DNA of 64,000 bases from NCBI GenBank assembly GCA_963921825.1, contig OY997593.1, forward strand, positions 49,832,039 through 49,896,038, in the 5' to 3' direction. Position 1 is the first letter of the stretch. Every line of letters starts with the position of its first letter. This stretch comes from Erodium maritimum (Eukaryota > Streptophyta > Magnoliopsida > Geraniales > Geraniaceae). The notes below the pieces were generated by a model. That model ran no database searches and was not told where the DNA came from. It worked only from the letters and a program-made list of their open reading frames with translations. Positions 3,943 through 46,156 of this stretch are shown here, in pieces. A program made the position numbers and the translations under genes.

Positions 3943-6900
3943 CTAATCCTTTATTTCAGTGTTTTCTTTTCAGGTATTCCTAATGGAGAAATTTGATCTC
4001 ACTGCTGGTAGATCTATTACCAAGCCCCACTGTACGTTCTGCAACAGATCTGGACATGCCTTAACTGAATGCCGAACTCATGCTCGTCACCTTCTTGCAT
4101 CAGACACCCCTCGATGGGGAAACTCTAGGCCCTCTAAAAACTTTAGGGGGGCGTGGCTCCCGTGGGGATCATCGGCCTTCCAACAAGCCAAATGGCACTG
4201 TTGCTGCTACACCTGTTGTGTCTGCCAAATATCCTGACATGACTGTTCTCTTGGGTGACATACGAGCGTTCTTATCAGCTCACACTGCCTCGTCAGGTAG
4301 CTCATCCACTGTTGCTGCTACACCTACTGTGTCTACCAAATCTCCTGACATGACTGCTCTCTTGGGTGACATACGAGCGTTCCTATCAGCTCACACTGCC
4401 TCGTTAGGTAGCTCATCCCCTACTACGCCAGGTAGTACATCCACGTGGTATCTTGATTCTGCTTGTTTCAATCATATGAGCCCGCAATCAGATTTGCTCA
4501 CATGTGTAACTCCGGTCACCAAGTCTCCGTCTATTCATACTGCTGATAATTCCACTTTAGTTGCCACACATTGTGGTACCGCAACCACGGACCAACTATC
4601 ACTACCGAACACCTTGCTTGTCCTAGATTTGTCATTGAACCTTGTATCGGTTGGTCAATTGTGTGATTTGACGTTAACTTTTCTGGTCGTACTTCTTTTG
4701 TTCTTGTGCAGGATCTACTGACAGGACAAATCCATGGGACAGGACGTAAAGTTGGTCGCCTGTTCGAACTCACCTCACTGATAGTTCCCTCACCATCATC
4801 ATCATCCTCGTCTACTTGTGGCGTTGTCGTCTCTGTCGATCTATGGCACTCTCTCCTAGGTCATCCCTCTTCCTCTCATTTGCGTAGTCTTATTTCTAGT
4901 GGTTTGTTGGGGTCAGTTTCGCATAACTTTGGTGATTGTGTGTCTTGTCAGCTTGCTAAACATCATAAACTGCCGTTTTCCCTTAATAATGCTACTTTCT
5001 CTGCACCTTTTGATCTTGTTCATTCTGACTTGTGAGGAGCGGCACCTGTTCCGACCATGGGGGGGTCTCGGTGGTTTGTTATATTTGTTGATGATCATAC
5101 TCGTTTTACTTGGATTTATCTCATGCATAATAAATCTGACTTCAACAATGTTTATTATGAGTTTTCTGCCATGGTTCGCACACAATTCTCTAAAGTTATC
5201 AAAACAATGCGTATGGATAACGGCATGGAATTTAAAGAGTCATCCTTCCTTGCACAATTTGCTTCCACCGGTACTATCGTTCAGCGCTCCTGCCCTGGTA
5301 CATCGCAACAAAATGGTCGGGCAGAACGCAAACATCGCCATATTCTTAATACGGTCCATGCTCTCACCATTGCAGCTGCCTGTCCTGAACGTTTCTGGGG
5401 GGAGGCTGCCCTCACAGCCGTTTACACCATCAACAGAGTTCCATCCCCGGTCATAGGTAACTAAACTCCTTACGAGTGTTTGTATGGTCGTCCTCTAGTT
5501 TATGATCTTCATCGTGTCTTTGGGTGTGTCTGTTTTGTTCATCTACAACCTCATGAACGTACGAAACTTGAACCTCGTTCTCGTCTTTGTTGCTTTATTG
5601 GGTATGGGATCGAACACAAAGGGTACAAATGTTGGGACCCTGTTTCCAAACGTCTCCGCATATCTCGGCATGTCACATTCTGGGAACATAAGATGTTTTC
5701 TTCCATGTCTTCTTTTCACATTTCCGAGTCTACTCCTTTCTTTTCTAATCCCGATATTGATATGTTTACTGATGATGATGAGGGTTCTCCCATTGAGCTG
5801 ACTCCTGCAGGTGCTCCGACATCTGTGCCTCCTACCATGGACCATGTTCTGCCAGAGGATCCCGTGCTAGAGGATCCTGTGCTACCGAGTCGACCACAGC
5901 TTCATCGGCAACTCCCATCTCACCTCCAGGACTTTGAGGTAACCCTACCATCTCGTGTTGCTTCCATAGTGTCCTCTGTATATGAGCCTGACACCTATCG
6001 GGAGGCTTGCACTAACCCCCTGTGACAGCAAGCAATGACTGAGGAACTACAGGCCATGGTGAAGACTCATACATGGGATCTGGTACCTTTACCTCGGGAC
6101 AAACATGTGGTCGGTTCTAGATGGGTATACAAGGTGAAGACCAAGGCAGATGGTTCTATCGAGCGATACAAGGCACGTATTGTGGCTCGTGGATTTACCC
6201 AGGAACATGGGGTTGATTATGAGGAAACATTTTCTCCTGTTGCGAGACTCACTTCTGTTCGAACCATTCTTGCTGTTGCTGCTGGTCGACAGTGGGACGT
6301 TTTTCAAATAGACGTGAAGAATGCTTTTCTCAATGGAGATCTTGCAGAGGAGGTTTATATGAAGCCCCCGCCCGGCTATGATCATCCCCCACACATGGTT
6401 TGCCGTTTGCGCAAATCCATTTATGGACTCAAGCAGGCTCCGCGGGCATGGCACTCTAAGTTCAGTAGTGCGATGACAGTCTTTGGTTTCGTCTCTAGTC
6501 CGCACGACAACTCACTGTTTGTTCGTCGGACCTCTCAGGGCCATACTCTCTTACTTCTGTATGTGGATGATATGATCATTACTGGTGATGATGCTATCGG
6601 TATTGTGGATCTTAAGCGTCATCTAAGCGAACAGTTCAAGATGAAGGATTTGGGTCATCTCTTTTACTTTCTTGGTTTGGAGATTTCCTCTCTATCCTCT
6701 GGTTATCATTTTTCCCAAGCCAAGTATGCAGCCGAGCTCATCTCCAAGGGGGGACTAACCGATAGCAAGATCGCTTGCACTCCCATTGAAGCGAATGTCA
6801 AGTATCTTCCATTAGATGGTAAAGCTCTCGAGAATCCCACTTTATATCGCCGATTAGTTGGAGGGTTGGTATACCTCACTGTTACTAGGCCTGACATTGC

Positions 6901-7526
6901 ATATGTTGCCCACATCGTCAGTCAGTTCATGTGCGCACCTCGCACTGCTCACTATGAGGCCGTTCTTCGGATCTTGCGCTATGTTCGAGGCACCTTAACA
7001 CAAGGAATACATTTCTCTTGTGGCTCACCTTTAGTCCTATAGGCCTATTCAAATGCAGATTGGGCAGGCGATCCCACAGACCGACGATCTACCACAAGTT
7101 ACTATTTCTTTCTTGGTAACTCTCTGATTTCCTAGAGAAGTAAGAAACAAACAACCATCGCCCGCTCCAGCACGGAAGCTGAGTATCGAGCCCTTGCTGA
7201 TACTACTTCCGAACTCATATGGCTTCGTTGGTTACTACATGGCATGAGTGTTGTTCACAAGTCAGCCACTACCATTCATTATGACAGTCAGAGTGCTATT
7301 CAGATTGCTCATAATGATGTCTTCCATGAACGCACCAAGCATATTGAGATGGATTGTCACTTTGTCAAACAACATCTCAATCAGGGCACCCTCGCTCTCC
7401 GATCTGTCCCCTCCAGCGATCAGATTGCAGATATCTTCACCAAGGCTTTAATCCCTGGGAAGTTCAAACATTTAGTTGACAAACTCAACTTGGGTTCATT
7501 ACCACCATCTTGAGTTTGAGGGGGGG

Positions 7527-9110: not shown

Positions 9111-9124
9111 TACTCAAGAGAGTT

Positions 9125-10032
9125 TTTTTTGAAACGGGTAACCGGAGACTTTCATTAATATCAATAGGTAATCAAACAAAGCAGGGACGTGACCGTCCCG
9201 GGTTCCAGATATATGTCCAAACCGGCCGTAGAAGGCCCGACGCTCATGGACCCATAAAAAAGCCTACTTGAAATCGTAGGCACAAACTCAAGATAACTTC
9301 TTACCTGCGTCTCAAAACAACGAGACAAGAAATGTAAAATCCTAAGCAACGCAAGAAATAAATTGTTCCAAAAATAAAGTAAATAACAAGAAAACAGGTA
9401 AAATAACTGAGCTGTTGTTGCAGGCTGCCCGGGACCTCCCAGCACTGGCTGTCCCGGGTCTGTTGGTATAGTCCGACATCGACTCCACCCAGCCCTGCCA
9501 GGTCGGGTCATCCCTGCATCGGAGGCTTCCCTGCCTCCGTCTGCTTCACCTGGTCCTCCTCAGTGATCATCAACGGGTGGTGATCGTTCCGATAGATCTC
9601 GGCCTCCGGGGGCTTCGATCTCTCAGGCTCAGGGGACAGGCGATATGGCCACACGGGCTGGAGAACTCGGCCGTGCATAGGCCCATCGCCACGTTGGTGC
9701 ATGGACACTGAATCCGGCATCCATGGGGACCTAGGACGCGCTCCAGCGTGGTGACGACGTGAAACTGGGAGAGCCATATCTGTTGTGGGGAAGGTAACGA
9801 GGCGGAGGAGGACGTCAGCGTGGTTGTTGGTGACGGCGGCGACGATCGGATCTGACGAATGGTGGTTGTTGACAAACGGTGGCGGTGTGGTTGTTGACGA
9901 ACAGTGGTGGCGACGAGGGCGAGGAGGCCGGAGAAGGGCGGCGATGGTGATGGTGGCGGTGGTTGGACCCTGGCTATAGTAGATTGGACCCTGGTGGCTA
10001 GGGTAGACGAGAGCTTTTTTAATTGAATTTAT
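9125..10032 (-). mobile_element. ORF-bearing retroposon, copy b (SRRH family)
   Basis: The element lies on the minus strand between 14-bp target duplications TACTCAAGAGAGTT (9111-9124 and 10033-10046). Its 3' end (left side) is CCGTTTC followed by a short poly(A), seen as poly(T) on the plus strand. A C-rich 5' region (about 9780-9990) leads to an ORF at 9777-9508 (89 aa) beginning MALPVSRRHHAG, clearly related to the ORF of copy a at 24134 (MVLPISRRHRGE). Near the 3' end a second conserved peptide reads YGSMSVGPSTAGLDIYLEPG. Target duplication and poly(A) indicate LINE-type retroposition. The element encodes no recognisable reverse transcriptase, and I do not recognise the ORF family. Confidence 0.75.
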
Positions 10033-10046
10033 TACTCAAGAGAGTT

Positions 10047-11398
10047 AATAGACATACATTCTATATCATGTTCGTTATTCAATTGTTTTGAATTGAGGTA
10101 ATTATTGTTGTAGATGTCAATAGTATGAAATTAAAATCAAGAAATGAAAATATAGATATTTGTAATACAATTAAGAAAAACAACTGTGAGCGCACCACTC
10201 TACAAGACCCGCACGACAACGACTTAAGGTCTAGATCAGCACGACGTAGGTATCAATCCTCATGATCTGGTTGCCTTAAGTCGAAATCACTACTCGTTAG
10301 ACTTGCATCTGTTTTTTCCATGCAACACACAAAATATTCATTTACATGTTTCTTATAAACATTGATTAGTAACTCTAATCCTGGATTCAGGATCTTTAGT
10401 TACACATGAACATCTTATATGCTAATTAAATGGTTGTTAGGAAAATTACAAACATAGAAAATGAGAAATAAATGAAACTATAAGATACTAGAAATAGTAC
10501 AAAAACCTCCCTGAATTGCAACAATGATCGTCTTATATTTTTCCAACGATTACGGCTCCCAGCTCTCAACTTTTCACTCTGTTTTTTTATACAAATTGAT
10601 TCTCCCCTTTTTCTAAGCTAAGAAGGAGTATTTTTACTAAAATATTCGAGTCTTATCAGTTGAGAATATCTTTTCTACCTCCTTGCATCATTCTCCTACC
10701 ATTCTGAAAACTCAAAGCATGAAATCTGGCAGTTGATGTTGTTATATGTTCGACATATCAGACGGGTAGGTGTACGGGTAACGTGATATCCGACGGTCGT
10801 ATCAGGTCGGGTGGTTGGTCGGGCACTAGCGTATCCGACGCTTGTAATCGGTTTGGTCTCTAGCTGGGTATTAGTGTATCAGATCCTTTACCCGATTAGA
10901 TGGTCGGTCGGATATTAAGTGCTATTTGCTCCGCTTTCGTTTGTTTTTGTCCCATTTCGTTTCAAGTTCCTACAAAATCTTAGCAAGACGCAAAATACCG
11001 AAAAACGAGAGAAACATGGAGTAATCCTTTTTAGAACGAGACAAAAGAAGTGCTAAAAGTGAGAAAATACTTTGAAAAGAGTGTAAAATGCATTCGTATG
11101 AACACCCCACCCTTAGACTTTTCTTATCCCGAAAAAAAAAACAATAACGATAATGCTGGTTAAACCCTTCAATTCACCTCGATCGGAAGATTTTGGCCCT
11201 TTTTGTTCAATAAAGGATGTCTCCTATATACATGTACTTGGAGCTTAAAAGTTATTAAGTTATCTTCCACATTAACCTCTCTTCTATTTGTAAGGAAATA
11301 AGATGACCATGGAATCAAAAAGGACTTTATTAAGCTTGTAATGTTAGGCTTGACTCAAGGTCGAAAAATGACAAGAAAAGAAGCTTACGGGTTATCAT
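10047..11398. other. Unassigned intergenic DNA
   Basis: AT-rich with no long frame and no recognised element ends. A short inverted pair, ACTTAAGG and CCTTAAGT, occurs near 10223-10280. A stretch with repeated GTCGG/GACGG words lies at 10750-10920. Confidence 0.5.
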
Positions 11399-11909
11399 TG
11401 TTGGTTTTTGTGCCCTAGGCCAATCGAGATCATGGATGACATTATTATTTCATTATACACCGGTACTACTATTATCATTTGCGAAATATTAATAGTGTGA
11501 ATAATACTCTTTCTTACGATCATCGGGTTGAGGACCTGATAGTAAAACTCTTAGAAGTAATAGAGTATTATTCACTTGATCTCTGGTCTTACGGATATAC
11601 TAAGACTAGTATGATGTTGGCTGATGATCACGTTTTACTGATCATACATATTGGATATGAAGTCAAATCATAGATGTCATTCAGGGAAATGGTATTGGAT
11701 GACCCACTATGAGAATACTACATATGAATCGTCATAAGTATTTCTCAGTACCGTAATATGACTTAAGTCCTTTGACCTTATAGTCATCATGATTTATACA
11801 TAGGTGACTGTGTGCTTTGACACAGTTAAACGTTGTCTTTAACCGGGCAACTATAAAGGCTGTGATTGGATGCATAAGTGTCTATGTGAGAGATATGTTT
11901 GACTGATAA

Positions 11910-12642
11910 GAGCATCCACAACCATCTCGCCGGCTGCCGGCGAGATGACGCCGAGGAGATGGTTTAAAATATGTTTTTTAAATCATCTCACCAGCTCACC
12001 GCCAGCGAGGTCTGCAGTGGGGTGTTGTTGCTGGCGAGGAGCCGCCGGCGAGATGGGGAAAAAGCAATTATAAAACAAAAAAAATTGCTACTCAAACCCA
12101 CAACTTTATTATAATTATACATATAACACACAATTGCTTTGGCCTTTGACGGACGAACGGACGTCGGCGGGCTCGGAAATAGTTGGAGAGGATTGGAAGG
12201 TCGGGTTGGGGGAAAAGCTCGGGTCCAAGAACTCTTGGGACAACGCTTCATCCGTCACCGACCTATAGTTGAGAACCCACTCGTTGAGATTGAAAGACAT
12301 AGCGAAAATTGGAAACTATGGAAGTGTAGTAGAAGGAGAAAGAATTTGATTGTGTGTGAAAAATGAGTTTGAGGGGTGTTATTTATAAGGGGAAAGTGCA
12401 AATAGCATTAACTTTTGCTGCCAGCGACCACGCCACGTGTCGCCAGCGAGTGGGTCGCCAACGGCCGGCACGCCGCCCGAGACAGTCAAAGTCCAACTCG
12501 CCAGCGAGATTTGCTAGCGAGTTCGCCAACGTCTCTCCATCTCGCCGGCGCCCATCTCGCCTGCTCCTCGCCAGCTCCCCGCCTCCTCCTCGCCGGCGAC
12601 TTCTCCTCGCCAGCACCATCTCGCCCACGACTGTGGGTGCTC
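11910..12642 (-). mobile_element. PIF/Harbinger MITE or internally deleted element, TSD TAA
   Basis: The terminal inverted repeats begin GAGCATCCACAACC (left) and, on the other strand, GAGCACCCACAGTC (right). They are flanked by TAA on both sides (11907-11909 and 12643-12645), as typical for this superfamily. Interior arms are rich in CTCGCCGGC words and fold back. On the minus strand a TATA-like box (TTATAAATAACACC, about 12376-12389) and a leader precede an ATG at 12300 opening a 61-codon frame (MSFNLNEWVLNYR...). This looks like the promoter and first codons of a parent element's gene. No transposase is present. Confidence 0.82.
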
Positions 12643-15600
12643 TAAGGGATTTGTCACTCATACAAATATGAGAGATATCGTTTGCGCCTCTTGATAAGTG
12701 GAACTGCAGGAAAAGCATGGGCATGTGAATTGATAAAAAGTTATCACTGGCAGTCTACTTAAGATCAAGAAACAGCGATCGAATAAAATAAGGATGAGGG
12801 CCCTATGCCTTATTCGATCGACAAATCGTTGACAGAAAGATTAGCATATTAGCGTGTAAAGGTTAAGTCCCATTGATGATCATCATACACGTTTGGGTAG
12901 TCATATTGCATTTGTAAGAACCGCCCCCGGTCGCTTCCGGTCGAACCGGTGATTTCTAGCCAAGTTTGACTTTCAGTCGGAAAAGTCAACCGATGACTCT
13001 GGAAGTCACTCGGGACCTTTCCGGGACCCAAAAAGCTTAACCGTCATCACGGTTAGCTTAGTTGGGTCATTTCATTCTGTTTGACTGTAATATTGTAACA
13101 GTGAACTTTTGGTCAAACTCGGACTTGTTATCGACTTTTTCCGATTAAAATTGGACTGCTGGAATTTTATTAAAATAAAGTGGCTCCCACAATGCCACAT
13201 GGCATTAGAGATTTGGATGAGAAGAAAATGAGTTGAAATGACCTTTTAACCCTCCTTAAAGCCTTTAAGTGGATTGAACTTGAAATGGGCTTTTGGTCAT
13301 TTAGCTTTTAGGTCATTTAAGGCAATTGTTGGAGACAATTCATCCATTTTCTCCTTGTTGCAACGAAACACCACTAGAGGGAGAGAGAGGAAGAGGCAAA
13401 ATTTCTTGAGGAAGAAGAAAAGGAGAAAAATGAGTCATCTTCAAGCTTATCCTTCACCAAATCATCTCAAAACCCCTTGTTTCTTCATCATCTCCTCATC
13501 CTAAAGGTATGGATGCTCTTAAATCCTCATTTCATCCACTTTCTAGTTTGGGTTTTTGTGGGTTTTGGCTTGAGCTTGAAGAACTAGTTCTCTTGGTTGT
13601 TGTTTGGAGAAGAATTAATGAAGTTAGGTTGTTTTGGTTGATGTTGGTTGAAGTTTTTATGAAACCATTGAGGGTGTTGAGGATTGAAAGTTTTTGATGG
13701 TTATTTTGGAGTTGTTTGGAGCTCGAAATGGAGTTTTGGGTTGATTTTCGTGGAATCCGAGTTGGGGAAGAAAGGGGAAGGTTCTGGTCTGGTTCAGCAC
13801 GGAATGGGACCCGGAACGGGCCTGGTGCCGGCACGGTGTGCATCACAGAACGGGGTGGGTATCGACACGGTACGCGGCTCGGAACGGTCCAGACTCCGGC
13901 ACGGGACCTCGCACGGTCCGTGTCTGATTCCGAGCCGGTGCGTCGCGCGGTCCGTGTCTCGTACCGGGCCGGCCTATGATGCGGTCTGTGTCTGGTTCCG
14001 GACCGGACCCTGATACGTTCCGTATCATATTGCGGGCCGGACGGTGACATGGGACGTGCCAGATTCCGGACCTGGTTTCCAGAACTGAAACCCTTCCTTT
14101 TTTAGTCTAATTCGATTCCAAAATCATTCCTTTGGCTTTATTTCTGTTCATGGAGGACTGTTATGTATTTTAAGTTGGGGAACACTCCGTTGAGTTACTA
14201 AGTTTGGTATTGTTGTGGTCCAAGACCGTGAGACCGAGCTCGAAGGAAGACGAGGACTTGGACCCGTGAGAAGACGAAGAGTACACTAGCCCGGACTTCA
14301 GCAGCGAGAAGTTTTATTAGAGGAAGACCACAAGGTAGGGAAAGTACTAAACTCCTCGTGTATTTTAATACTTAGCATGCCTACTAGGTTAATAAAATCG
14401 GATAGGTCCTAGATTGCATATAGGATGCGAATAACTAGAATAATCGTCTTTCAATTACTAATAACCGGACGTGTCTAGTATGCATGCGTAGGATGTGAAT
14501 AACTAGTTTAACTCGCTTTCAATACTTGGGAATTGCTTTACTGGTAGAAAGGCCGAGATGAGCCCTAGGATTGTTTATGTTTGCCTCACATGCCTTGGTT
14601 GCCTAGTTTTGGATAAGTGTAAAGAACGAGAAAAATTTAACGTTTAAATTATTAAATAATAACGTCGAGGTTGGGAACGAGTTTGTTTTGAAAAAAAAAA
14701 CTGGGCTGGTTCGTTCTTTGGGCCTGGCCCAACCAGCTGGCCCAAACTCTAGGTATAAATACCCACTCTTAGGGTTTTCACCCTAAATTTTGTCTGCCTC
14801 TTCTCTCACCTCTCAGCCGACCTCCCTCTTCCCTCACCTTCACCGAGCCGACCCTTTCTCTCCCATCTCCATCCTCTCCGGCGACCCTCTCTCCGGCTCC
14901 GGCCACGTCGTCTCCCACCTCCCTCTTCCTCACCGAGACCCGACCTCCCTTTCCCCTTCGCCCCGTCTTCTCCAGCTCACGTCGCCGCCGCCGCCGTTGG
15001 CCGACCCCATCGATCCCTCCTCGTCTCCGTCCAGCCACGGTGCCACCACCGAGCCACTCGTCGTCTCCGATCTGAAGAGGACCGGCCGCGACTACCATCG
15101 CCGCCGCCCGAGCTCCGTCGCGCCTCCACGGACTCTCCGTCGCCGTGCACGGCCAGAGCCGAGACGGACTCGCCGGCGCCGTCCCCGAGCTCCTCTCGCC
15201 CCCGAGCCTCCATCGCCGGCCTCACTCGGATCTGAGCCGCCGCCGCCGTCCTCGATGGTAGCGAGGCCGGAGCTACCTCGCCGTCGCCGGCCACGCCCTC
15301 GAACCCGAGCCCCGTCGTCCCAGATCTGAGACGGGCGAGAGGACACCGAGCTCCGCCGTGCCCCGCCGCCCTTACTTCCCTACGGTGAGCCACCACCGTG
15401 AGTCTCCGGCCGGCTTTATCGCTGTCGAGGGTCGTCAGATTTTCTGACCGAGCCCTCCCTCTCCCTTTCGTTGTATTTTTCGAACTTCTGTGAATCTGGT
15501 TTTTGGTGTAACAAACAAAGAAAAGAAATAAAAACGTGTTTGATTTACAAGTTGTTCTTTTTTTGGTTTTGGATCTGAATATGTTTGGTTGGAATCAAAA

Positions 15601-16539
15601 TCAGGGTTTTTAGAAAGAAAAGATTGTAAAACGAAAAATCAGATTTAAGGAAAAAAGGGATTTAAAATAAAAGGATTTAAAATCAATTTAGTTTTAAAAA
15701 CGGTTTTAAATCGAGGGGTTTGAGAATCTAGTTTGTAAACGGGATTTAGGGACGACTGTTCAAAAACCGAACTTAATTCATTTTGGGCTCAAGGGATCGG
15801 AACAGGAACAAATTTGAAATAAAAGGGAATTTGATTTGAAACAAAAACCGTTCTGTTTTGAATAAAGGGTTATTAATCGGAATTGGGAACGAATCTGGAA
15901 CTCTGGTTAAAATGGACTGCTAACTAGGTTTAAAAAGGGAACAAAAGCGGACCGCTAAATCGGACCTCGGGATTCGTGCATTGGGACCGTGCCTCGCATG
16001 CACCGGTTTCGGTGCTCGAGTACTCAAACCCGATTCTCCGTGACCCCGCTTTTATCCCGCTCGAGTTAAAGGACAACTGTCGGTTTTGAACTGGTTTAAT
16101 CGTGACCTTTAAATTAACCTGGGAACCACCTCTAATTATGTTTTTCGTGTTATCTTTAGTGTCCGGCTTCGATCGAAGTGAAGCCCGGAGGTAGCGAGCC
16201 AGAACGTCAGCAGCTAGGAAGCGTAGCGAGTGTTCTTCGGTTGAGGTAGGGAAAAGTAGCCGGATCTCGGCCCTAACTAGGGAAAGTTAACAGTAGAATT
16301 GCATGTGACACCGGGGTGTCGTGGGTTAAGTAGGTTTATGGAATATTAGAAATGCAAGATACTGGAACGTAGCGATTATGAGAAAAGCATGTGACACTTA
16401 GTAGTGTCGTAGGAGCAGAGAACTTAGCGTTAATTGATTTACTGGAGGCATATGACCATGCCCGGAGGTTGATTGAGAAACTGTTGATATTAGGACTGTT
16501 GGAGGCTTTGGTTAAGCCGAAGGTTGATTGTTTATTTGG

Positions 16540-16990
16540 CGTCTTGGGTGGCCTTGAGAGCCCGTTTATTACTGTTGAGTCTTGGGTGGCCATGAGAGCC
16601 CGTGTTATTATTTGTGTTTGGTTGGCCATGAGAGCCCGTGTACTAAGGTTGGTGTTTTAGCTGGCTTACGAGTTAGAGTCTCGGTAAGTTGCAAGCGTGT
16701 TTTATCGTTGAGTTTTGGGTGGCCATGAGTGCTCGTGGGGTCGTTGAACCCGTGTCTTTACCTTTGGTGTTTTGGGTGGCCATGAGTGCCCGTGGGGTTG
16801 TTGAACCCGTGTCTTTACTGTTGGTGTGTCTTGGGAGGCCGTGAGTGCCTGTGGGGCTGTTGAGTCCGTGTTTTACTGTTGGTGTGTCTTGGGAGGCCGT
16901 GCGTGCCTGTGGGGCTGTTGAGTCCGAGTTTTACTGTTGGTGTCTTGGTGGCCATCAGTGCCTGTGAGTGTTGAACCTGTGTTGTTACTG
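16540..16990 (+). repeat. Minisatellite in family-A LTR (TTGGGTGGCCATGAGTGCC units)
   Basis: About seven imperfect units of 50-60 bp, each with a core close to GTGGCCATGAGTGCCCGTG followed by a TTGAACCCGTG-like arm. The inverse complement of the same unit forms the arrays at 37487-37846 and 42767-43075. Confidence 0.85.
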
Positions 16991-17159
16991 GTTGTTGAAC
17001 TTTCTTGTGATTTTGATTGTGATTGTGATTGCGATTGTGTTTGTGGTTACCTGAGGTTGGGGGCCCGCTTCATGAAACGGGGGTCCACGATCACACGCGT
17101 CTGCATGTTCAGACGGGGTAGGGGGCCCGCCCGCCAATAAAGGGGTCCTGGTCGCGCGT

Positions 17160-17345
17160 GTGTGGTTTGGGTTTGTGAGCATACTTTGGCTGGCTTACGG
17201 GTTAGAGTCCCGGTAAGTTGCACGCATACTTTGGCTGGCTTACGGGTTAGAGTCTCGGTAAGTGCAAGCATTTTCCGGCTGCCTTACGGGTTAGAGTCCC
17301 GGTAAGTTGCATCATTCTTGGGTTGGCCTGACCGGGTTAGAGTCC
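17160..17345 (+). repeat. Second minisatellite in family-A LTR (GGCTGGCTTACGGGTTAGAG units)
   Basis: Three to four units of about 45-55 bp built on TTACGGGTTAGAGTCCCGG followed by TAAGTTGCA. One older isolated unit is visible near 16660-16690. Confidence 0.8.
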
Positions 17346-20300
17346 CGGGAGGGCGTTCTTGGCAGCTGGTTTGCGATCCTTTGTGATCTTGTTTGGTGTG
17401 CGATCCTTCGTGATCTTGTTTGGGGTGTGATCCCTTGTGATGCTGTTTGGTGTTGCGTAACTTTCTTTTGAGTCCTTGGAAGAGGTCGTCAATGGTTGTG
17501 TCGGGTCTACTTTACGTGTCAGGGTGTCGAGTTGGTCAGGGAAGGCAACAGTGGGTGTATGTTCAGTTAGAGTACTCGGGTTGGGGACGGTGTTCCCCGG
17601 TGTTGAGTTGCTGGTGGTGTTACTTGCTTGTCTGCTAATTATGCCGTAGTCAGTCTGTTATCCGTGGTGGTGAGCGAACGCTCACCCCTAGCTGCTTTTC
17701 CTACAGGTACTATTCGTGGGACGGACTAGGTGAGCTCTCGAAGCTTGTGGAGCTAGGAGCGGAGTCCGGGTCTTGTCTTTTGAGTCTAGTGACGGATACC
17801 TTGTACTTTTGTCCACTTGTTGGGACGTGTTTTAAACTGTAATTATTATTTTGTTGAATTAAACTGGTGTTTTTAAAGTGATTTAATGAAAACAGGTTTC
17901 AAGTGTTGTATCTTTTTAAATGTTCGCGTCCCGAGTTCGGTTCACTGAAATTGGGGCGTGACAAGAAGACAAGAGTCTAATACAACTAGATGATTTGATT
18001 GCTGAACTTCGAATGCTTGAATGATTATTTGATCGAATGCTTGGATGAATGATTGTATGAACATTGAGTGTAATTGATTGTGCTAAATGGTACATGATCG
18101 GGTGAGTGATAGACCGATCTAGTGCGGTTGGTAAGTATATCGGTAAGTGTAAAGTTATATTGTTTCTTGTGGTTTGCTTGATGGAATTGTGATTTTCTAA
18201 GCTATGGTTGCTCCATGATTGTTTAGTACGTTATTCTTTTGTGAGTCTTAAAGTTGGGTTTTATACCGGTATGGCACCCACGCTGCGGTGTGGGGTAGTG
18301 CCTGTAAGGTACCTACACCAAAGGGAATACTGGTGTGTGGTAGTACCTAAGCCGATGACTTGTGATCCGGTATGGTACCTACACTGAAGGAATTTCCGGT
18401 CTGGGGTAATATCATAGCCGGTGGATTGGTTACCCTGCGGGGATGATTCTTCGTGGTTGGGCATGGTACCCACATTGAAGGAAATATTGGTGTGGGGTAG
18501 TATCATAGCCGAGAGATTGGACCCTACGGGGTATTGGTTATTGGACCCTGCGTGGCAATTGGATGGTTTACCCTGCGGGGAATGGTTACTTGTTAATTCA
18601 CCCGAGTATATGCATTCTGCGGGAGCATTGCCTCAGTTCCTGATGATCTATGGTCTTTTGGAGACGTTTCTGAGGGTCCCGACGAATGCATCCTCATATG
18701 GATGTTTCCGGTATTTTCTCGACGTTATACGTCTTTGTGATGTCATGCGTCTCCTCTGGGCCGAGGGAAAATCCGACATGACACAAAGAGTATTGTGGAT
18801 CGGAGTGTGGTGACTTCATGTTCCACGGTGGCACTTAAGTGCTCTATCTTCTATTGATTTTTAAGAAGTGTATTGTTTCCCTTAATTTCTATGATTACTG
18901 CTAGCTTCTTAAAAGCGTTAAATACCCGTTTTATTCCCGTATTTCAACATCTTCTTAGTTCTTCGTATTATTGAGACTCGAACGAAATTGTGAAATTCTA
19001 TTTATTAAACTTAAAGACTGCCCTCGTTATTTATTTTCCCTACTGAGCGTAAGCTCACCCCTATTTGTTTATTTACTGTTTTTACAGGCTTGCTTGATGA
19101 GTAGTGGACTCGAGGCTCGGGAGCTTCTGTGGGTCCGGGTGCTTTATCTTTAGAGACGGTTATGGCCTTATTTTGCTACGAACCTTATGTGTAAAGGATT
19201 TATTATGGAGCTTTTTACTTGAGATATTTTTATTGAAACTAAACTTAGAGAGTTATATTGGATCTGAGACACTTTTGGTTGTTATATTTGTATTATCTTT
19301 AAGTCACGTCTCGAGTCCGGCGAATACCGGATTTGGGGCGTGACAGCTTTGCTAGAAGACAACTATGACATGTGGACGAATCGAGGATTTCGGGCCCACT
19401 ACCTAACGTCGTATGAGCCTACAAGGTCACACCTAACAACAAGCCCAAAATCGTATTGGACTTTGGAAGTCCATTAATTGAATAAAATAATATATTTTTT
19501 TTGAAACAATAAAATAATATATTATATTTGATATAATATTTATTTATTCATTAACTTGTTTTTCGAATTGTCAATATAATAATATTATTTTGGTCAATTA
19601 AAATGCAAAAATGACTCTTGAATTTTTGAAATTCAAAGAGGGTATTTTTGCATGACCATTACTCCTAAAATGAGACACTTGTCATAAAAGAAAGTCCAAG
19701 AGTTGATCTTGCTTGAAATGACTTAGTGGAGTCATGTTTAGGAATAGTAAGCATGCAAAACCCAAGTGAGACACATGTCCAAGTTGGAAGTCCAAGCGTT
19801 GGGTTTTTTCAAATAAAATAAGTGTGATCATGTTGGGTTAAGTAAGCATGCAAGAAAGAGGAAAAATCAGATTTTTCTCAAGGTTGTGCTGAGAATGGTT
19901 CTCAAAGTGTAGAGAGAAAAATGAGTAGAGAGAAAAAGAGAGAGGAAGAAGTGTTCTTCATCTTGTGCTAGCACACAAACGATTTTGGGAAAGATTGTTC
20001 AAGAACTACGTGGCTTTGATTCTTCCAAGAGGATACGTAGGCGTCTTGGAGACTCAAGTCAAATCCATTTGTTTCGGGTGTTGTTTGTTTGCAAGAAGAG
20101 AAGAAAAATCTGGGCATATTTTTCTGCCCAGAATCTGTCCGACCAGCCACTGTAAAGAGCTCGATCGGAGGTTCATCCGAGGTTCTGCTGATGTTTGGAG
20201 TGAACGTTCTAAACTTATTGGTCTTAAATCTGACTAGAGGGATTTGAATTAGAACGGTTGGTTGCTGAGATATACGAGCTGCACGTCGGTCCCTGTCTCG

Positions 20301-20474
20301 AACCAAGCTGAAAAATTGAAAGAGGTAATCTCTCCTTTAATATTTGTTTGTCGGTTTACTCGGAATTACATGGTTCCTGAGGCTATTCTAGGGAAATTTT
20401 TTATTTTCTGCTTCACTTTTACACCCTACAAATATGTGTACATATCCCCCAACCTCTATTTGGAATCCAAAACA

Positions 20475-21861
20475 CGCTTAGGGTTAATTTTCCTTTGAAC
20501 ACCACTTTTTCACGACTTTTTATTTTTGTGGTTTCTTCTTAGATTCTTTTTTCTCTTCTTAACTCTTGCTCTCTATTTTTCTTTTTTTAGAAGTATAAGA
20601 ATGAAACACCCCAACTTTAACTTTTGAATCCTTTTTTCTTTGCTCTCATTCCTCACATCCACTCTCAAGAATGACCACGATCAGGATGCATATAATCACC
20701 GAAACACGGAATCAAACAACTATAGGTTAACAAGAAACGAAACGACACATAGGCTTGTAATGTTTTAAGTCAAGAAACGAAAAGTTCGGGCTCAACGTTG
20801 GGTGACTTAGAATAAACAAAACAACAGAGTAGCTTATTTGGATCGAACGTCCGAAGATGACCTTGAATCATTTTCCTAATCACCTTTTTCTTTATGTTAT
20901 TTCTCCTTGAGTGTATATACAAAACAGTTCTGGACTTCTATTTACCAAGCATATAGAAAACAGGAAATTCAACAAAATCTTATTGTAACTCAGAGAATGT
21001 GCAAAATATCATAAGATATAATTTCAAGATGGTTCATATTGATTGTTCTTATTATACAAAGTATAAACTTTAGATTCAATGGATATGCAACATGCAATCA
21101 AACCTATCCAACACCCAAAAATAAGTGATCAAATGAAAGATCTAAGAGAATCCATTCATGAATCCCCGAGCTCCTCCTCAGAGTTGGAACTAAATGATAT
21201 AGTTGTTCAACTCATGCAATAAGCAACAACATTTCATCTTTTTTCTTAAAGCTTTTCACTGTAACCTTTTTCATTTTTAAGAATAATGTTCGTGTGCTTG
21301 AGTTTTATGTAAAAGGCTTTGGCATTGCTTAATAGTCCTTGACAAATAGGAATTGGGAGCTCATTATATTTGTAATTTGTTTGTGTAAGTATAAAGTTTA
21401 ATACTTTATACCCAATACATTACTTGAGGGCTTTGATGTTTGCAGAAAGTCAGCTATTCTTGCAGGATGATACACCAACACTTGATCAAGGTATGGTTTT
21501 CTTTTACTTCCCATGGCTCATGTTTTGTTTAATACACAAGTTTATTAAATGGACTAATTTCTACCATTACTTTTATACTGAGGCATTTCTGTGAAATCTG
21601 TCAAAATATTTTGACTTTGACATTTCAGGCAGTGAATGAAGCCAAGAAACTAGAATATAGATGGTTGAATTTGAAATTTGTATCCAAATGTTTACTTGTT
21701 ATATGATCTGATCAAGATTTACTGAATGATACAAGTAAAATTCATAGTACGGGCATTTCTAAAGCCGAGAAGAATGTAGTTAGAAAAAAAAATGTTGTTT
21801 AAAATGTAGCAAGGAAGGGGACATTGTTTGAGAGGCAATACTTGGGTTGGGTTGGTAACAA
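20475..21861. other. Intergenic DNA with one short unexplained ORF
   Basis: AT-rich and mostly featureless. A 47-codon ATG frame at 21079-21222 on the plus strand reads MDMQHAIKPIQHPKI and ends LNDIVVQLMQ; it is not recognised. At 21442-21487 a short open segment (SQLFLQDDTPTLDQ) lies between a TTTGCAG acceptor-like and an AAG/GTATGG donor-like site and could be a stray exon. The last 100 bp would be the 3' UTR of the TLC gene. Confidence 0.35.
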
Positions 21862-22900
21862 TTAGGCAACTTTGTTGGTTGATGTCCTCTTGATGAGCTT
21901 GTACCGCACCATCCTCACGATCTTGTAGAACCAGAATGCACTCACCAGCTGCAACCCTATTGCCATGGCCTACAAACCCATTTCTCTTCACTTGAGATAT
22001 TGCATTTCTCTCTTTTTATTTTCAAGGAATATACACAGATACATACATACATACATACCTTAATGAGGAGCGGATTTTGAGCAGATAGAGTCAAATAAGC
22101 GAGATAAGGCCCTCCCACCATCCTTGCCAATGAGAATATCACTGCAAATGCTATCTGTTCGTTCGCACAACAAAGATTAGCCAAGCAAGCGCTAGCTTTA
22201 ACAAACAAACAAACAAACAAGTAGAGTTGTAATTAAGAGTTGGAGACAAACATCGGCCGCCAGGTTGAGGTCTGTGTCTTTGTACCCAACCTCCTTCAAA
22301 AGCTCCCTCGCATGGAGGAAAGGGCTCGAGATCTCTGTTATCCATACTGCCGCCACCATCTCTGATCCACACTACATAACATAACATAACATAACATAAC
22401 AACATAACATTTATAACAGGACGTCACAAATCATGGTTATAAAATAATCAAGAGCCAAGTAAGTACCCTTTGGTAAGCAAGGCCGGCTCCAATTCCCACA
22501 ATGCTCACCAAGTGGTGGATTGTGTTGTCAACGCTGCTTTTCTCGTCAAACAGGCAACATATCAGGTCATAGATGAGATACGAGAGGCTCACTGCAAGTG
22601 TTTGCATCTGCATAACCACACAAATCATCGTATCACCAACAAATTGAACCCAACAAAACAAGTATAGATTAAGGGTCACACCTGCTTGGGAGAAGAGGTT
22701 GAAGCCACAGGACAAACAGGGCAGCTCCAATCTTGGACAGACAGAGAAGCTAATGTCACGGCTATGACTGCATGAATTGTGGAAACAAGCCTGTTGCAGA
22801 AATCGAAAGAACGGTCCTTGAACACCTTCCTCATCGTCACAAAAACCATTGCCCATGAGATCACTCCAACAACACTCAAGTTAATCACGTAGTCTTCCAT
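21862..22900 (-). CDS. TLC domain-containing protein (TMEM56/TLCD4-like), five exons, intact
   Basis: Exons on the minus strand are 22900-22682, 22607-22467, 22371-22252, 22154-22059 and 21969-21862. Every intron is GT-AG, every junction falls between codons, and the total is 684 bp, or 227 aa. The ATG at 22900 starts MEDYVINLSVVGVISW; an upstream in-frame ATG (22942) is not typical of plant homologues. The protein is a chain of hydrophobic segments with the plant TLCD4-like signatures SFDFCNRLVSTIHA, SVQDWSCPVCP, LSYLIYDLICC, VDNTIHHLVSIVGI, WITEISSPFLH and ARMVGGPYLAY. About six membrane spans are expected, probably in ER or another endomembrane. TLC-domain proteins relate to lipid handling in other families, but a reaction for this branch is not established. 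No lesion was seen. It is the only intact gene between two repeat blocks. Confidence 0.93.
22371..22410 (+). repeat. (CATAA)n microsatellite at an intron 3' end
   Basis: About seven pentamers of CATAA-type directly upstream (minus strand) of TLC exon 3. The exon acceptor is the last AG of this repeat, so length changes would alter acceptor context. Confidence 0.85.
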
Positions 22901-22942
22901 TTCCGACCCAAACCCAGAACAACAATTTTCAATTTCACACAC

Positions 22943-23887
22943 AAAACAACAACAACAACGACAACAACGACGACAACAACTGGGTAAATGTCAGTTAATA
23001 CAAAGCTACCACAACAAGCTTCTCGCCCTATATCAGCTGCCAACAACGTTTCAATAATGTTGGTGGTAGCTGAAGCTCATTTAGTATTGCTGATAAGCTT
23101 AGGTGAGTTTTTCTCTTAACACTTCATTGACTTCATTTTAATTACTTAATACTTATCCGTTCCAAGTTATTAATTACCAGTACGTAACACCTAACTAGTA
23201 TTCAATGAATTAGCAGAACAGTGTGAGTTTCAAAAAGCTAACATCAAGAGATGAGATTTTACCACAATTATGACTTAGATCGTGTAATCGATATGCTTTT
23301 GTGTATCAAGATATTAGTCCAGATAGCTATAGCTGAAAGGAAAGTTCATAAATATGGTGGTTGGAACATACATGACCTGGAAGGAATACATTTGCACCAG
23401 CTTGGCTTATCTGTAATAATAATAGTTAGGTGCCAATAATAAATTATAATGCAAGAGTTTTAAAACCTAATTTCGTTAATACAATGAAAAATTAAACAAT
23501 AATAATAAACAGCTTAAATATTAGCTACGAGAGAGAAACAGTTCAAAAAAAGCTACGAGAGAGGAACAAAATGGACCACAACAAATTGCAGAACAGACTT
23601 GTGGAGCCACTCAGTCCAAAAATATAGCAGTCACTTTTCCCATGTGAGCTAGGCTCCACACTGGATATTACTTTCTCCTTCTCCAAACAAGTGTTTTATT
23701 TTATTTTTTCATAAAACAAAAAACTTGGCATATCATTTTACCAGATATTATTTATATTTTATATAAAAATTATTTCTTGTTTAAATGGGGCTTTAAGTTT
23801 TCAAGATGTTGTTCCACGACGATTCTTTGGAAGTTCTAACAAGGAATAAATTAATATTATTTAAACTTGGTCCTATACGTGATTAGA
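22943..23887. other. Upstream region of the TLC gene
   Basis: It contains an ACAACA/ACGACA-rich stretch (22945-22982) in the presumed 5' UTR and then AT-rich DNA. No further gene was recognised. At 23889-23927 a poly(T) followed by GAAAAGGGTATATAT looks like the minus-strand 3' tip of another, severely truncated retroposon. Confidence 0.45.
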
Positions 23888-23936
23888 TATTTTTTTTTTG
23901 AAAAGGGTATATATATTGTAATTAAATAAATTGTCC

Positions 23937-25340
23937 TGGATTGGCCACCCAATTTTTGATAGATGGGTTCAGCCTAAAAGCGTTCCACTACCTTCAAGTG
24001 ATGTTTTCTCCCTACCCTATTTAGGGTTTACTCTAGCAGCCGTCGGACAACGCTCCACCGCCAGCCACCGTCTTCCCCACCATCGTTCGCAGCCTCTTCC
24101 TCCTCGTCGTTCCTCTTACCTCGTACCAGCACTATGGTTCTCCCCATCTCCCGCCGCCATCGCGGTGAACCTCACTCTAGGGCACCATGGTCGCCGGATT
24201 TCCCTCCCCATCCCCGCCCCTTTACGCTCGGCCATCCTCGCCCCTTCATACTCGGCCACCCCATCCCATCACTGGTTCTGTATAACCGTGGTGGGTGGTC
24301 CATGCATGGTGAGAACCACGATCCGATGTGGTCGTACCCGCTTCCTTGGATCCGACCAACACACATGGAGCCCGCCCGGTCTTTCGCCGTCAACCACTAC
24401 AATCGTCGTCCCCTGCCGGACTGGGACCAGAGGGTCCGGCGTCAGGGATTCCTTCATCAGTTTCTGACCCCCGTCCCCTCACCGGAACACTATGCGGTCC
24501 CGGCCTACCAATGGGATCCGCTGCACCGTTTATCATGGTCGCCGAGTTACCAGCCGGGGTATGCTAAATCTGGGGACGTGATAAACCCTAGAATGGCTCC
24601 ACACTCCAAGGAGCAAGCAAACCCTAAGGGGTTCGCGGACATTAGGGGACATGCAAACCGCGGAAATCGTGGTACTGTTGCTAGGGATTTGGCCCCGTCT
24701 CCAACGGTAGCCAAACGCCATGGAGAGGAGGTCTCACGTCCAAAGCCACACCCGAAGATCAGAGCGAGGTGGAAGTTACCTGACCCGAGATTGGGAGAGC
24801 TGAGGGACTGCCTCTTGGCCCGCTGGGGGATCTTGAGATTCACTACAGCCATTGTACCAAGACCCAGGGTGATCAAGACGGGCCATAAGTCGGAGTCCTT
24901 GTGGTTGTCAAACAACACCGAGCAAGTGCAGGAACGGGAAGTCAACCCGGGGGACTACAATCCCCCGGGGGATGAATGATTCTCCAGGGCGGGGGTGGGA
25001 AGGGCCGTCAGGGGCCTATACCCACAGACCCGGGACGACTAAAGCCGGGAAGTCTCGGGGAATCCGCAATCAAGGCTCTCTTTCATTTCAGTCTATTTGG
25101 TTTAGGGAGAATAATGTTTTGGCTAGATAATTTCCGTTCTGTCATTTACTCCCCTTTCGAAACGTTGGATCGAGGAACTCTTGAGTTCGGATCTGCGAAA
25201 AAAAGCAGACTATGTGTATGGAACCATGTGCGCCCGATGGGCCACAGCCGATCGGGACAAAAGCTGGTATCCGGGACTGTTGGGTCCCTCTTTGTAAGCA
25301 TGATAAGATCATAATACAACTTCTTTCCCGTTTCAAAAAA
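23937..25340 (+). mobile_element. ORF-bearing retroposon, copy a (SRRH family)
   Basis: It is framed by perfect 9-bp duplications AAATTGTCC (23928-23936 and 25341-25349). A C-rich leader (about 24020-24130) precedes a long ORF. The 3' part carries the family peptide YGTMCARWATADRDKSWYPG (about 25209-25268) and ends TTCCCGTTTC plus poly(A). Leader, ORF start and 3' end all match copy b at 9125-10032; the ORF here is three times longer. It has no reverse transcriptase, so it must be moved in trans if active. Confidence 0.78.
24134..24979 (+). CDS. Retroposon ORF, function unknown (281 aa)
   Basis: The open frame starts MVLPISRRHRGEPHSRAPW at the same place relative to the leader as the copy b ORF. 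Shared features with copy b are the SRRH start, the APW/SPW-PD motif, a central MHG...P-W-Y block and a basic, Asn/His-rich segment; by eye this is real protein homology and not just composition. The protein is Pro/Arg-rich, has no membrane segment and no zinc knuckle that I can see. It might be a nucleic-acid-binding ORF1-type protein, but that is inference only. A captured host-gene fragment is the alternative. Confidence 0.5.
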   Translation: MVLPISRRHRGEPHSRAPWSPDFPPHPRPFTLGHPRPFILGHPIPSLVLYNRGGWSMHGENHDPMWSYPLPWIRPTHMEPARSFAVNHYNRRPLPDWDQRVRRQGFLHQFLTPVPSPEHYAVPAYQWDPLHRLSWSPSYQPGYAKSGDVINPRMAPHSKEQANPKGFADIRGHANRGNRGTVARDLAPSPTVAKRHGEEVSRPKPHPKIRARWKLPDPRLGELRDCLLARWGILRFTTAIVPRPRVIKTGHKSESLWLSNNTEQVQEREVNPGDYNPPGDE

Positions 25341-25349
25341 AAATTGTCC

Positions 25350-26294: not shown

Positions 26295-28162
26295 TTTTTT
26301 TTTAAAATGGGCGACGAGGAATTGCATTACTAATGTCAATCAAACAATACAAGGAGGGTTAGAAGCCCTGGGAACCAGAATAAAACCGAGTCTCATGTAG
26401 GAAACTCGACGATCTTGGACCCGTCAGAGTAGTCTAATTTCCATCTAGATAAAAATTCCTACGTCATACACTAAACTAGGAATGTAAACTACTGAAAGTA
26501 AACAACCATAGAAATATCCAAACAAAACCAATTAAAACATAAATGAAACAACACAAGCAGTAGGAAATCCTTGGTGTAAACACGCTCCCCCAAGTCATGG
26601 CTTGTAGAACCGGGCTTGGGTTGTGGGTGGGGGGGGGGGGGGGGGGGGGGGTAGGCCACAACTCGTCTACCCCACGAGCCCCATAGAGACTCATGGTTCT
26701 TGGTGGGGCTGTTTTGCAGCTCGTTCCTGATAAGAGTCGTCCTCAGCTCCATTTTCATCGAGGAGTCGGTACTGTGCGGGTGGGGTTCCTGGTGTCTCTA
26801 GGGGACCTTTTCAGTTCGGATGCACGACTATAGAATTGAACCGTCCTATTACTTCCCTTAGTCTTCAATATCTTTAGGTGCTTGAGACTTATGTCTCCCC
26901 CGAGCTCCCGAGGCTCTTTCTACTTCCCGACCCAACTGGGAGTTTCCACCATTTGTTGGGGCCCTCTAGAAAAGACGACAATAAATGTGTGGGGCTCCCA
27001 CTAACGTAGCTGAGCTCCCCTCCCAGTTCCTCCCGATCGGGCTCCTAACTCAGGTTATCCAGGTCATGGGTCTTCGCAATCGAGCATGTCCTATATAACA
27101 ATCCTAGATCCGCCCATTGAGAAAATCGAGGTGTTCCCTCGGAACCCTCCTTACCCAATTCATCAGTCTTCGGGACTCCCTCCCCTCTAGCACTTAGTAA
27201 AGCAAGAAAACTCTGAGGAGGACGAAGTTGTCTCCCCTGTATCCTGCTAGCTCCCTCAGACTCAAGGATGAGAGAAGTCAAAAGTTCTTCCACCCAAGGC
27301 ACTGAGCGAGGCTTTGGTGCTTCCCATTGTGTCTAGAGCAGTTAGTCTGTAGCCACACCCATCTGAACCCGAAGCGAATCATCAAACCTAATCTCCTCTA
27401 GTCCCACTCTTGGGATACATGCTTGACAAGCCTGGGCGCGGTGGGTAAGGCGTCCACAGCAGACACAGAAGCTCGGGAACCTCTTGTATTGCAATCCCAC
27501 TATGGTGGGCTCCTAGTGTCCCAAAAACTATAACCGGATCCTTCGCCGGATGGGTCTTTCCACATCCAAACTAACCAGGAATCAGAGAAACCATTGCATG
27601 GCACGAGGTGGGTATTGGAGCCTCAACCACCTCGGTTCCCAACGAGTTTTCCAATAAGGACCAGATATGATCATTCCAAGCATCTCCCGATATGTTGTAC
27701 GCCCTGACTCCGATCTCCAAAAATCAAAGATGGCGTCTGGTTGCATGCACGAGGTAAGGGGACCATGAGAAAATAGTACACACTAAAGGTCCATGGACCC
27801 TTGTGTCGGATCCGGTGAGGTCTATTTTCGACGGGAAAATGAACGAAACGACGTCCTTGGAGAGGACGTCGACCTCCATACCGTTCACCTGCCAACGCTA
27901 GAGCATTTGGATGCGATTCGTGGCGGAGAGGGGCGGCGCATCGCGATGAGGAGTGACTTGGGGTCCCGCCACCATGGTCCGTGAGGCTTATCACGACTGT
28001 CTGGCGTGACGAGGTCGAGTCTCTGGTGGCATTTGTCATGTGGGTTGAGGAGGAGGAGAAAGAAAAATCCAAAATAACCATTAAGCTCGTGGAAATGGCG
28101 ACAAATTGGAGAAGGGGGATAACCTAATTTTGGAGTCGCTCCTTTTTGATGATAATGGGTTG
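26295..28162 (-). mobile_element. ORF-bearing retroposon, copy e
   Basis: It lies on the minus strand between 16-bp duplications, CTTTATCTATCTTGCC (26279-26294) and CTTTATCTTTCTTGTC (28163-28178), with two mismatches. The 3' tip is CCCATTTT plus poly(A), and the preceding TGGTTCCCAGGGCTTCT region resembles the 3' region of copies a-c. A minus-strand ORF begins at 28081 (MVILDFSFSSSSTHM, 136 codons), but it shares no clear similarity with the SRRH ORF. A G23 run lies inside (26629-26651). It is older than copies a and b judging by the decayed duplication. Confidence 0.62.
26629..26651 (+). other. G23 homopolymer
   Basis: Twenty-three consecutive G on the plus strand, a possible G-quadruplex former or an assembly artefact. 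Confidence 0.9.
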
Positions 28163-45270: not shown

Positions 45271-46156
45271 ACACATAATTTAATTTAATCAACAACAACT
45301 TATCAACCAGAGCGAAATAATGCCTTAATATATAAAAAAAATCAATGATAACAAATATATGAGTTCTATATAATCAAATATATTATTGCTTTAACTCATG
45401 ATTCAAATATAAATATTTAATTATAATTTAATACAATTATTTTCTCCTACTATTGAACCGGATAAAAAATTATTAAAGAAAAACAACATTTCTTATTAAA
45501 AAATGCTAACAACTACTTTATCATATGTGCATACTACCGAACTACCATTTAACCATTTCATTTTACGTATAAACTTATCTAATATGAGTTGTGAATCAGG
45601 TTTTTGAAAAGTTATAGTAGTTTGAAGCTAAAATTGAGCGTTTTAAAATGAAAATTAAAAAAAAGTCTAACATACAACAAATCTTCAAATATTCATACAA
45701 TTTTTTTTGCCTATCAAAAAAACATCATTTGAGCTCCGATTTAGACATGTAAGATACAAAATCAAAGGTAACTGAAACATCGACGGTTTTGTAGAACTTT
45801 ATTGGGCAAGGGTGCTCCATGGAACATTCTAAACCCTTATGAATCCGCCCTAATAATGTTCAGATGAAAACCAAACAGAAAAAAACTTCAAACTTGATGA
45901 CATTGTAAACATCTAAACATAGTTTACAAGCCAGAATAAGTTTCAAGACAGTTAGAACTACATGCGTATATACAACTTAAGGAGAAGCCACCTAACATAC
46001 AAACTGAAGCACACGACCTTGAAGCAAAAAAATTAGTCATGTCATGCATTTGCAGCACAATGCATACTTCTTCCAGATTATTGAACATAAAGAAAACTGA
46101 AGCATAATTTAAAAAAAAAAAAAAACTAGATAAAGCAGCGTTCCCGGAAGAGAGCA
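45271..46156. other. AT-rich intergenic DNA and MAP kinase 3' flank
   Basis: No gene seen. The last few hundred bases (about 45780-46156) would hold the 3' UTR of the MAP kinase gene on the minus strand. An A15 run at 46110-46124 lies in it. Confidence 0.5.

Follow-up and report, generated by a model that had tools for sequence, protein, structure and literature searches.

An expanse of 64,000 nucleotides from the 763-Mb genome of Erodium maritimum (C6:49832039-49896038; hereafter the window) was found to carry two members, copies a and b, of a dispersed, high-copy retroposon family, here called SRRH elements, whose open reading frame (ORF) starts with M-x-L-P-x-SRRH. As read from their sequences, these elements combine a poly(A) tail, target-site duplications, dispersal and the absence of a reverse transcriptase (RT) with an ORF under selection and a 3' RNA fold that is shared across families. 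They are thus probably non-autonomous poly(A) retroposons that depend on a long interspersed nuclear element (LINE) and encode one accessory protein together with a structured 3' RNA. The parts of the two copies are as follows.

23929-23936, no strand: 5' target-site duplication of copy a (AATTGTCC), from the sequence
23937-23974, plus: 38 extra bases between the duplication and the family start, outside the family, from copy alignment and a uniqueness search
23975-24133, plus: C-rich leader of copy a (TAAAAGCG..., including TTTAGGGTTT), majority C 41%
24134-24979, plus: SRRH ORF of copy a, 281 aa, from frame and selection analyses
24980-25334, plus: 3' region of copy a, with RNA-type and not protein conservation; it includes the '3' peptide' noted earlier
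25170-25295, plus: structured 3' RNA domain of copy a, 140.8 bits, with copy a itself in the model
25335-25343, plus: poly(A) tail of copy a (9 A)
25342-25349, no strand: 3' target-site duplication of copy a (AATTGTCC), having two A in common with the tail, from the sequence
9125-10032, minus: copy b, of a short subfamily, with about 12 extra bases at the 5' end
9508-9777, minus: SRRH ORF of copy b, 89 aa, from the frame list
9177-9302, minus: structured 3' RNA domain of copy b, 133 bits, with copy b itself in the model
9111-9124, no strand: 14-bp target-site duplication of copy b, tail side, from the sequence
10033-10046, no strand: 14-bp target-site duplication of copy b, 5' side, from the sequence

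Structure, dispersal and insertion hallmarks of the SRRH elements

An earlier note on this DNA, made from the letters alone, had proposed both copies as a candidate new retroposon family, and its description of their anatomy was in partial agreement with the present analysis: the copies lie where it placed them, flanked by AATTGTCC twice (a) and by a 14-bp duplication (b), both have C-rich leaders, both have frames opening with the SRRH motif (281 and 89 aa), and neither the frames nor Pfam revealed an RT in either copy. The extent given for copy a needs one correction, in that the family begins near 23975 and not at 23937. Each of the 27 other a copies aligned starts no earlier than query position 38, and the earliest start among the a matches listed, apart from copy a itself, is position 33; nearly all of 23937-23974 therefore lies outside the family. 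A 32-base stretch within it (23943-23974) occurs nowhere else in the host genome at up to 3 mismatches. An identifiable genomic source for the extra bases was accordingly rejected, as the search returned the window alone. In the copies tested for duplications, -3 to 51 unshared bases separate the 5' duplication from the start of the family. Such bases could stem from upstream transcription starts or equally from non-templated additions, the 32-base stretch of copy a being unique in the genome.

The observation of a family was largely real, and the family proved larger than the two copies first seen, with at least three SRRH subfamilies (a, b and c). All copy numbers given here are lower bounds, since the best candidates alone were scored. 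The copy a family gave 43 matches (best 40 of 2931 first-look candidates scored), mostly near full length and at 80-100% identity, accompanied by short secondary pieces at 74-96%, and the second, shorter family of copy b gave 49 (best 40 of 3147). The third subfamily, c, was represented by a minus-strand element with a 295-aa frame that adjoins a b copy (L031:2601-3485). Copies a and b represent two subfamilies within one non-LTR (long terminal repeat) retroposon group.

Target duplications scoring at least 9 were present in 39 of the 39 copies tested, as compared with 33 of 780 mismatched pairings, the sample being 27 a copies (the truncated L048 left out) and 12 of the 30 b copies, all complete or nearly so at the 5' end; the duplication in L002 is merely a low-complexity 9 bp. 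A poly(A) tract stands directly before the duplication, which is a feature of LINE-mobilised retroposons. At 38 sites, the two bases before the nick were T in 18 and 26 cases and the two after it were A in 35 and 33, the A side of this TT/AA-like nick being partly built in by a duplication search that permits a start inside the poly(A). No RT or endonuclease was found in the SRRH elements (frames of a and b; Pfam). The tails, the duplications in every copy tested, the dispersal and the lack of an RT all bear out the reading of these sequences as a retroposon family.

The SRRH ORF is under purifying selection

The frame of 270-281 codons is intact in 8 of the 28 a copies, and in L004 it continues upstream. 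When the protein of copy a was searched against the host genome by tblastn, 139 rows were obtained (best 138 of 1202 candidates scored), 25 of which were stop-free from residue 5 or earlier to residue 276 or later, down to 51% protein identity; the c protein gave at least 140 rows, grading over towards a. The ORF of copy b aligns mainly to the N-terminal part of that of copy a, the frame being cut to 89 codons, and an 88-89-aa frame with the motif was present in 15 of the 30 b copies (17 when two 89-aa frames without a motif match are counted).

To describe how the ORF has changed, synonymous (S) and replacement (N) changes in the 28 aligned a copies were sorted by the number of copies that carry them. 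Private changes comprised 94 synonymous, 261 replacement and 13 stop changes (N/S 0.93), changes carried by two or three copies 47, 109 and 4 (N/S 0.77), and those in four or more copies 58, 94 and 0 (N/S 0.51-0.52). The difference between private and shared changes was significant (Fisher p 0.006, with changes treated as independent), and the identical ORF columns read out of frame gave shared-change N/S of 0.86 and 1.28. In the b copies (29, with L031 omitted), N/S was 0.94 for private changes and 0.53 for 11 shared changes, which is too thin to stand alone.

Deeper comparisons were in agreement. The ratio of nonsynonymous to synonymous substitution rates (dN/dS) was 0.36-0.41 between the eight intact a copies and L089, a more distant relative, and 0.41-0.44 among a, L089 and c. 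Between a and L089, which differ at 281 positions, about 8 stops are expected under neutrality, and zero stops were reached in 0.05% of 2000 simulations, a figure to be read alongside the 25 of 139 above because L089 was itself selected from the stop-free tblastn rows. The past selection on the ORF that had been suspected from the protein similarity of the two copies, and for which dN/dS between copies had been put forward as a check, is therefore supported by the deep pairs (0.36-0.44) and by the fall in N/S from private to shared changes. The SRRH frame is coding and, in the lineages that replicate, under purifying selection; private changes look neutral.

The protein of copy a contains 41 Pro, and 40 Lys plus Arg as compared with 25 Asp plus Glu, with an isoelectric point (pI) of 10.4; that of L089 has a pI of 10.45, and that of copy b just 8.2. 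Such a proline-rich, basic makeup would fit nucleic-acid binding, which we offer as a guess. In a (24976-24979), b (9508-9511) and c (L031), the ORF stop overlaps the ATGA start of a small downstream frame, and no clear sign of selection was seen on that frame in a, b or c.

The 3' region is conserved as a structured RNA

Downstream of the ORF, the rate of shared changes dropped to 0.066 per column in the 3' region versus 0.16-0.20 in the ORF. The earlier note had described a 3' peptide here, and this part of its description was not confirmed: divergence was distributed over all codon positions with no coding pattern (35/35/32 and 22/20/18, and 25/20/16 for another a copy), and the supposed peptide lies inside the small frame that starts at the ORF stop in b, which is not so in a. 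A coding 3' peptide was hence rejected on the absent codon-position pattern, the differing frames and dN/dS-type controls of 0.67-1.25, and a structured RNA explains the conservation better.

RNAalifold applied to a, b and three older fragments from the flanks of fetched loci (L016, L023 and L038) yielded a multi-helix domain of about 126 nucleotides (nt), whose end lies 39 nt (a) or 46 nt (b) from the poly(A). In an alignment of 25 sequences (12 of the 28 a copies, 10 of the 30 b copies and the three fragments), 94.7% of the cells of its 22 pairs were paired, and 13 pairs showed changes on both sides. The covariation score was 0.423, as compared with at most 0.144 when the partners were slid by 1-3 columns, and the fragments contribute separate cases of covariation. 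Folded as single sequences, a and b were more stable than their shuffles (z -3.0 and -2.3, respectively). These observations indicate that the 3' region is a conserved, covarying structured RNA. The domain may number very roughly 10,000 genome-wide, as extrapolated from the three strong matches in about 225 kb of flanks, matches that are themselves in the model (L016, L023 and L038).

The 3' domain is shared with other repeat families

A search of the window with the domain model identified three further elements, none of them in the model.

57184-57922, minus: element d, of another repeat family, with the domain at 57238-57364, a poly(A) tail and an 11-bp duplication seen by eye; 103.1 bits
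26295-27906, minus: element e (minimum extent, other copies reaching further 5'), with the domain at 26349-26467; 37.5 bits, E 1.9e-6
45071-45205, plus: element f, its 3' domain, with a poly(A) tail downstream; 22.2 bits, E 0.0065

In each of the three, the domain is followed by a spacer and poly(A), and a fourth match at 34747-34840 was at chance level (E 2.6). Elements d and e are repeats in their own right, with 55 (best 40 of 2232 scored) and 54 matches (best 40 of 1745), and neither is an SRRH copy by tblastn; folded alone, both gave a two-stem core resembling that of a. Element f lies at 44880-45278 on the plus strand. The 3' domain is thus common to two other repeat families of the window (d and e) and probably to a third element (f). 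The decayed middle of e matches the zf-CCHC_4 zinc knuckle (PF14392, E 6.6e-7), and this element looks non-coding in the listed copies because the open frame around the knuckle spans just 56-108 aa. The window copy of d contains a stop-free stretch of 171 codons with no Pfam match, and f contains a 132-aa frame.

This distribution bears on whether the SRRH copies might be processed retrocopies of an expressed, intronless host gene family, with selection acting on the host genes and dead copies littering the genome. An ORF that is selected while most copies decay neutrally is what retropseudogenes of a conserved gene would look like, and the series of leader, ORF, 3' untranslated region and poly(A) resembles an mRNA. 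However, thousands of first-look candidates, with scored copies that diverge continuously across subfamilies, would be a lot for a single gene, the 3' RNA domain also occurs in d and e, which by tblastn are not SRRH copies, and the protein has no Pfam or PDB relative. Considering both sides, we regard an origin from host genes as unlikely.

Proposed mechanism and its relation to LINEs

We propose instead that SRRH RNA is copied in trans by the plant LINE machinery via target-primed reverse transcription. RNA polymerase II would start transcription at the element or shortly before it, and the transcript would be translated into the proline-rich, basic SRRH protein, which may bind its own RNA and help form or deliver a ribonucleoprotein (RNP). 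A mobile element can keep a protein by selection only where that protein helps its own encoding RNA more than others, and for this reason the SRRH protein is presumed to have a cis preference. The 3' domain would be the handle through which the RNA is picked up, whether by the RNP or by the LINE RT, and element e, which bears the domain with no intact frame seen, might hitchhike via the same handle; the fold in e is compatible with hitchhiking, and could equally mean that a host factor or the enzyme of the LINE reads it. An extension of this proposal, possible although we hold it as doubtful, is a guild of retroposons around the shared 3' domain, in which SRRH elements (a and c) would use their own RNP protein and a borrowed LINE RT, while e, and perhaps d and f, hitchhike.

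Several observations weigh against the proposed mechanism. As for the protein, it contains no known domain, so that RNA binding is a guess, and its single-sequence structure model was poor (pLDDT, the predicted local distance difference test, 49.6). As for the selection, dN/dS among the eight intact a copies, which are close pairs, was 0.48-1.07, and dS in the deepest pairs is near saturation. Read as codons, the leader yielded shared N/S of 0.65, 0.61 and 1.52 (26-28 changes) and the 3' region 0.64, 1.18 and 0.72 (23-24 changes); the scatter of these controls points to noise in small samples, and the weight of the ORF result therefore falls on its 150 shared changes and the deeper comparisons. 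With regard to the fold, the covariation test used the alignment from which the structure itself had been derived, many compensatory pairs represent a single a/b split seen in many copies, and one of the five covariation measures, the number of further pair types, was not above shuffles (25 versus a shuffled mean of 27.0). The domains of d, e and f folded alone were no better than shuffles (z -0.74, -0.15 and -0.49, respectively), and the one copy of subfamily c that was read (L031) retains an a-type tail with most of the 3' domain gone.

The same holds for the search for a partner LINE. LINEs were collected by means of their zf-RVT domain (best 150 of 12,902 first-look candidates scored), and 30 loci were fetched, about 26 of which had a 3' end recognisable by eye. 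No LINE bore the domain at its own 3' end in the 30 loci scanned with filters or in the 27 scanned without them. The sole good match at these loci (21.4 bits, L060:167-288) is on the strand opposite to the adjoining LINE, and this weak copy of the domain looks f-like by eye. Inspection by eye does show, in LINE tails, a hairpin whose spacing from the poly(A) is similar, along with a TAATACAA stretch resembling the one in copy a. When aligned to a single LINE tail (L061), however, two a copies scored 18, a value that 81 and 90 of 300 shuffles also attained. For b, c, d, e and f the corresponding numbers were 71, 95, 7 (the best), 39 and 26, respectively, and the three fragments gave 34, 262 and 204; two of the ten tails scored below the shuffle mean. 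Significant homology of the element 3' ends to one common LINE tail was rejected on these scores, which were not significant against shuffles. As no LINE in these loci had the domain at its 3' end and the tail similarity was not significant, dependence on a LINE enzyme is argued from the style of insertion only, and we infer the partner LINE.

These data also allowed us to consider whether SRRH is an internally deleted LINE whose ORF1 has diverged beyond recognition, in the manner of HAL1, and whose structured domain is the LINE 3' end. The ORF1-type zinc knuckle of element e, which has the same 3' domain, and the hairpins seen by eye in LINE tails would be in line with such an origin. Against it, the SRRH proteins gave no Pfam match (zinc knuckle, DUF4283 or RRM), the frame around the knuckle of e is short, and in none of the 30 scanned LINEs is the domain located at the LINE's own 3' terminus. 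Furthermore, hhalign of SRRH against one local LINE ORF1 gave 0.1 on the percent scale (E 0.47, with a weak profile of 6 sequences), on which ground a relationship to that ORF1 was rejected. A deleted LINE is thus quite improbable as the source. A LINE ORF1 match, which the earlier note had named as evidence that would overturn its proposal, was accordingly absent for the SRRH proteins themselves in Pfam and against the one local ORF1, with the knuckle of e as an indirect link. Within the window, two frames at 238-2127 have the makeup of a plant LINE ORF1, namely RRM_1 (E 2.3e-13) and DUF4283 (E 2.5e-6).

Comparison with known systems

The SRRH proteins of a, b, c and L089 matched no Pfam family at E values up to 10, and the copy a protein had no sequence relative in PDB and no match in phage, viral-contig or bacterial-genome collections. 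Rfam returned nothing at gathering score in the whole window, with two matches at chance level (E 6.6 and 7.6). In the literature (titles and abstract starts of open papers, repeat databases not included), no plant family combining a selected non-RT ORF with a 3' RNA domain was found. The statement that no described family has this protein is thus upheld for Pfam, PDB and the literature, other plant genomes and repeat libraries lying outside the search.

The nearest described group, as far as the excerpted sources show, is Sadhu of Arabidopsis. According to excerpts of its description, Sadhu elements are about 0.9 kb long, end in poly(A), are flanked by duplications of 7-16 bp, show no similarity to tRNA or 5S RNA, have a 5' polypyrimidine stretch, and occupy insertion sites consistent with LINE mobilisation (PMC2848041). 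The same excerpts describe them as non-coding, with 39 related sequences in A. thaliana, none outside Brassicaceae and a 5' motif CAATCGTTSC, and give no clear source of the enzyme (PMC2848041). Judging from these portions of the paper, SRRH elements resemble Sadhu in size (about 0.9 kb), poly(A), duplications, the 5' pyrimidine-rich stretch and the lack of tRNA or 5S RNA similarity, and differ from it in having a selected ORF and a structured 3' domain; the Sadhu motif was absent from a and b at up to 1 mismatch.

As for LINE partners, the excerpts of PMC3747384 describe maize LINE1-1_ZM and ZmSINE2/3 as a stringent-type pair of an L1 and a short interspersed nuclear element (SINE), with a conserved 3' hairpin and compensatory changes, and list ZmSINE2/3 as tRNA-derived, with about 50 nt in common with a known LINE. 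On that partial account, the likeness to SRRH lies in a LINE-dependent element with a conserved RNA hairpin close to its 3' end, whereas the SRRH fold measures about 126 nt, its element is protein-coding, and no partner LINE was found among the 30 loci.

Plant SINEs in general resemble SRRH elements in poly(A), duplications and, probably, LINE dependence, but SRRH elements are 0.9-1.4 kb long and protein-coding, with no RNA polymerase III head derived from tRNA, 5S or 7SL RNA found: the window gave no Rfam match at gathering score, no tRNA gene was present in the 8 loci scanned, and no B box in a or b (the A box was not looked for). The mammalian HAL1 (half-L1) is a non-autonomous, LINE-dependent element that encodes a recognisable L1 ORF1 and no RT. 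SRRH elements likewise have one protein and no RT, and differ in that the HAL1 ORF1 is recognisable while the SRRH protein is without a detected relative.

Other features of the window

Inspection of the ORF list indicated Copia-type polyprotein fragments at 4080-7042 and at 50593-55177, the latter over about 4.6 kb. On the minus strand at 46157-48688, frames resembling exons of a MAP kinase gene were noted by eye.

Significance

According to the excerpts of PMC3747384, many SINEs of flowering plants end in poly(A) and have no LINE homology, and three SINE/LINE pairs were known there by 2013. Against this background, a protein under selection and a 3' RNA domain with covariation are concrete parts with which the recognition of such elements can be tested, and the SRRH family allows one to ask whether a retroposon gains from encoding a protein without a polymerase. 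For genome annotation, the family serves as a warning, since an annotator could mistake an intact SRRH frame for a host gene of unknown function. If the guild around the shared 3' domain is true, it would amount to parasitism at three levels, from LINE to SRRH element to hitchhikers, with a protein selected in an element that lacks a polymerase.

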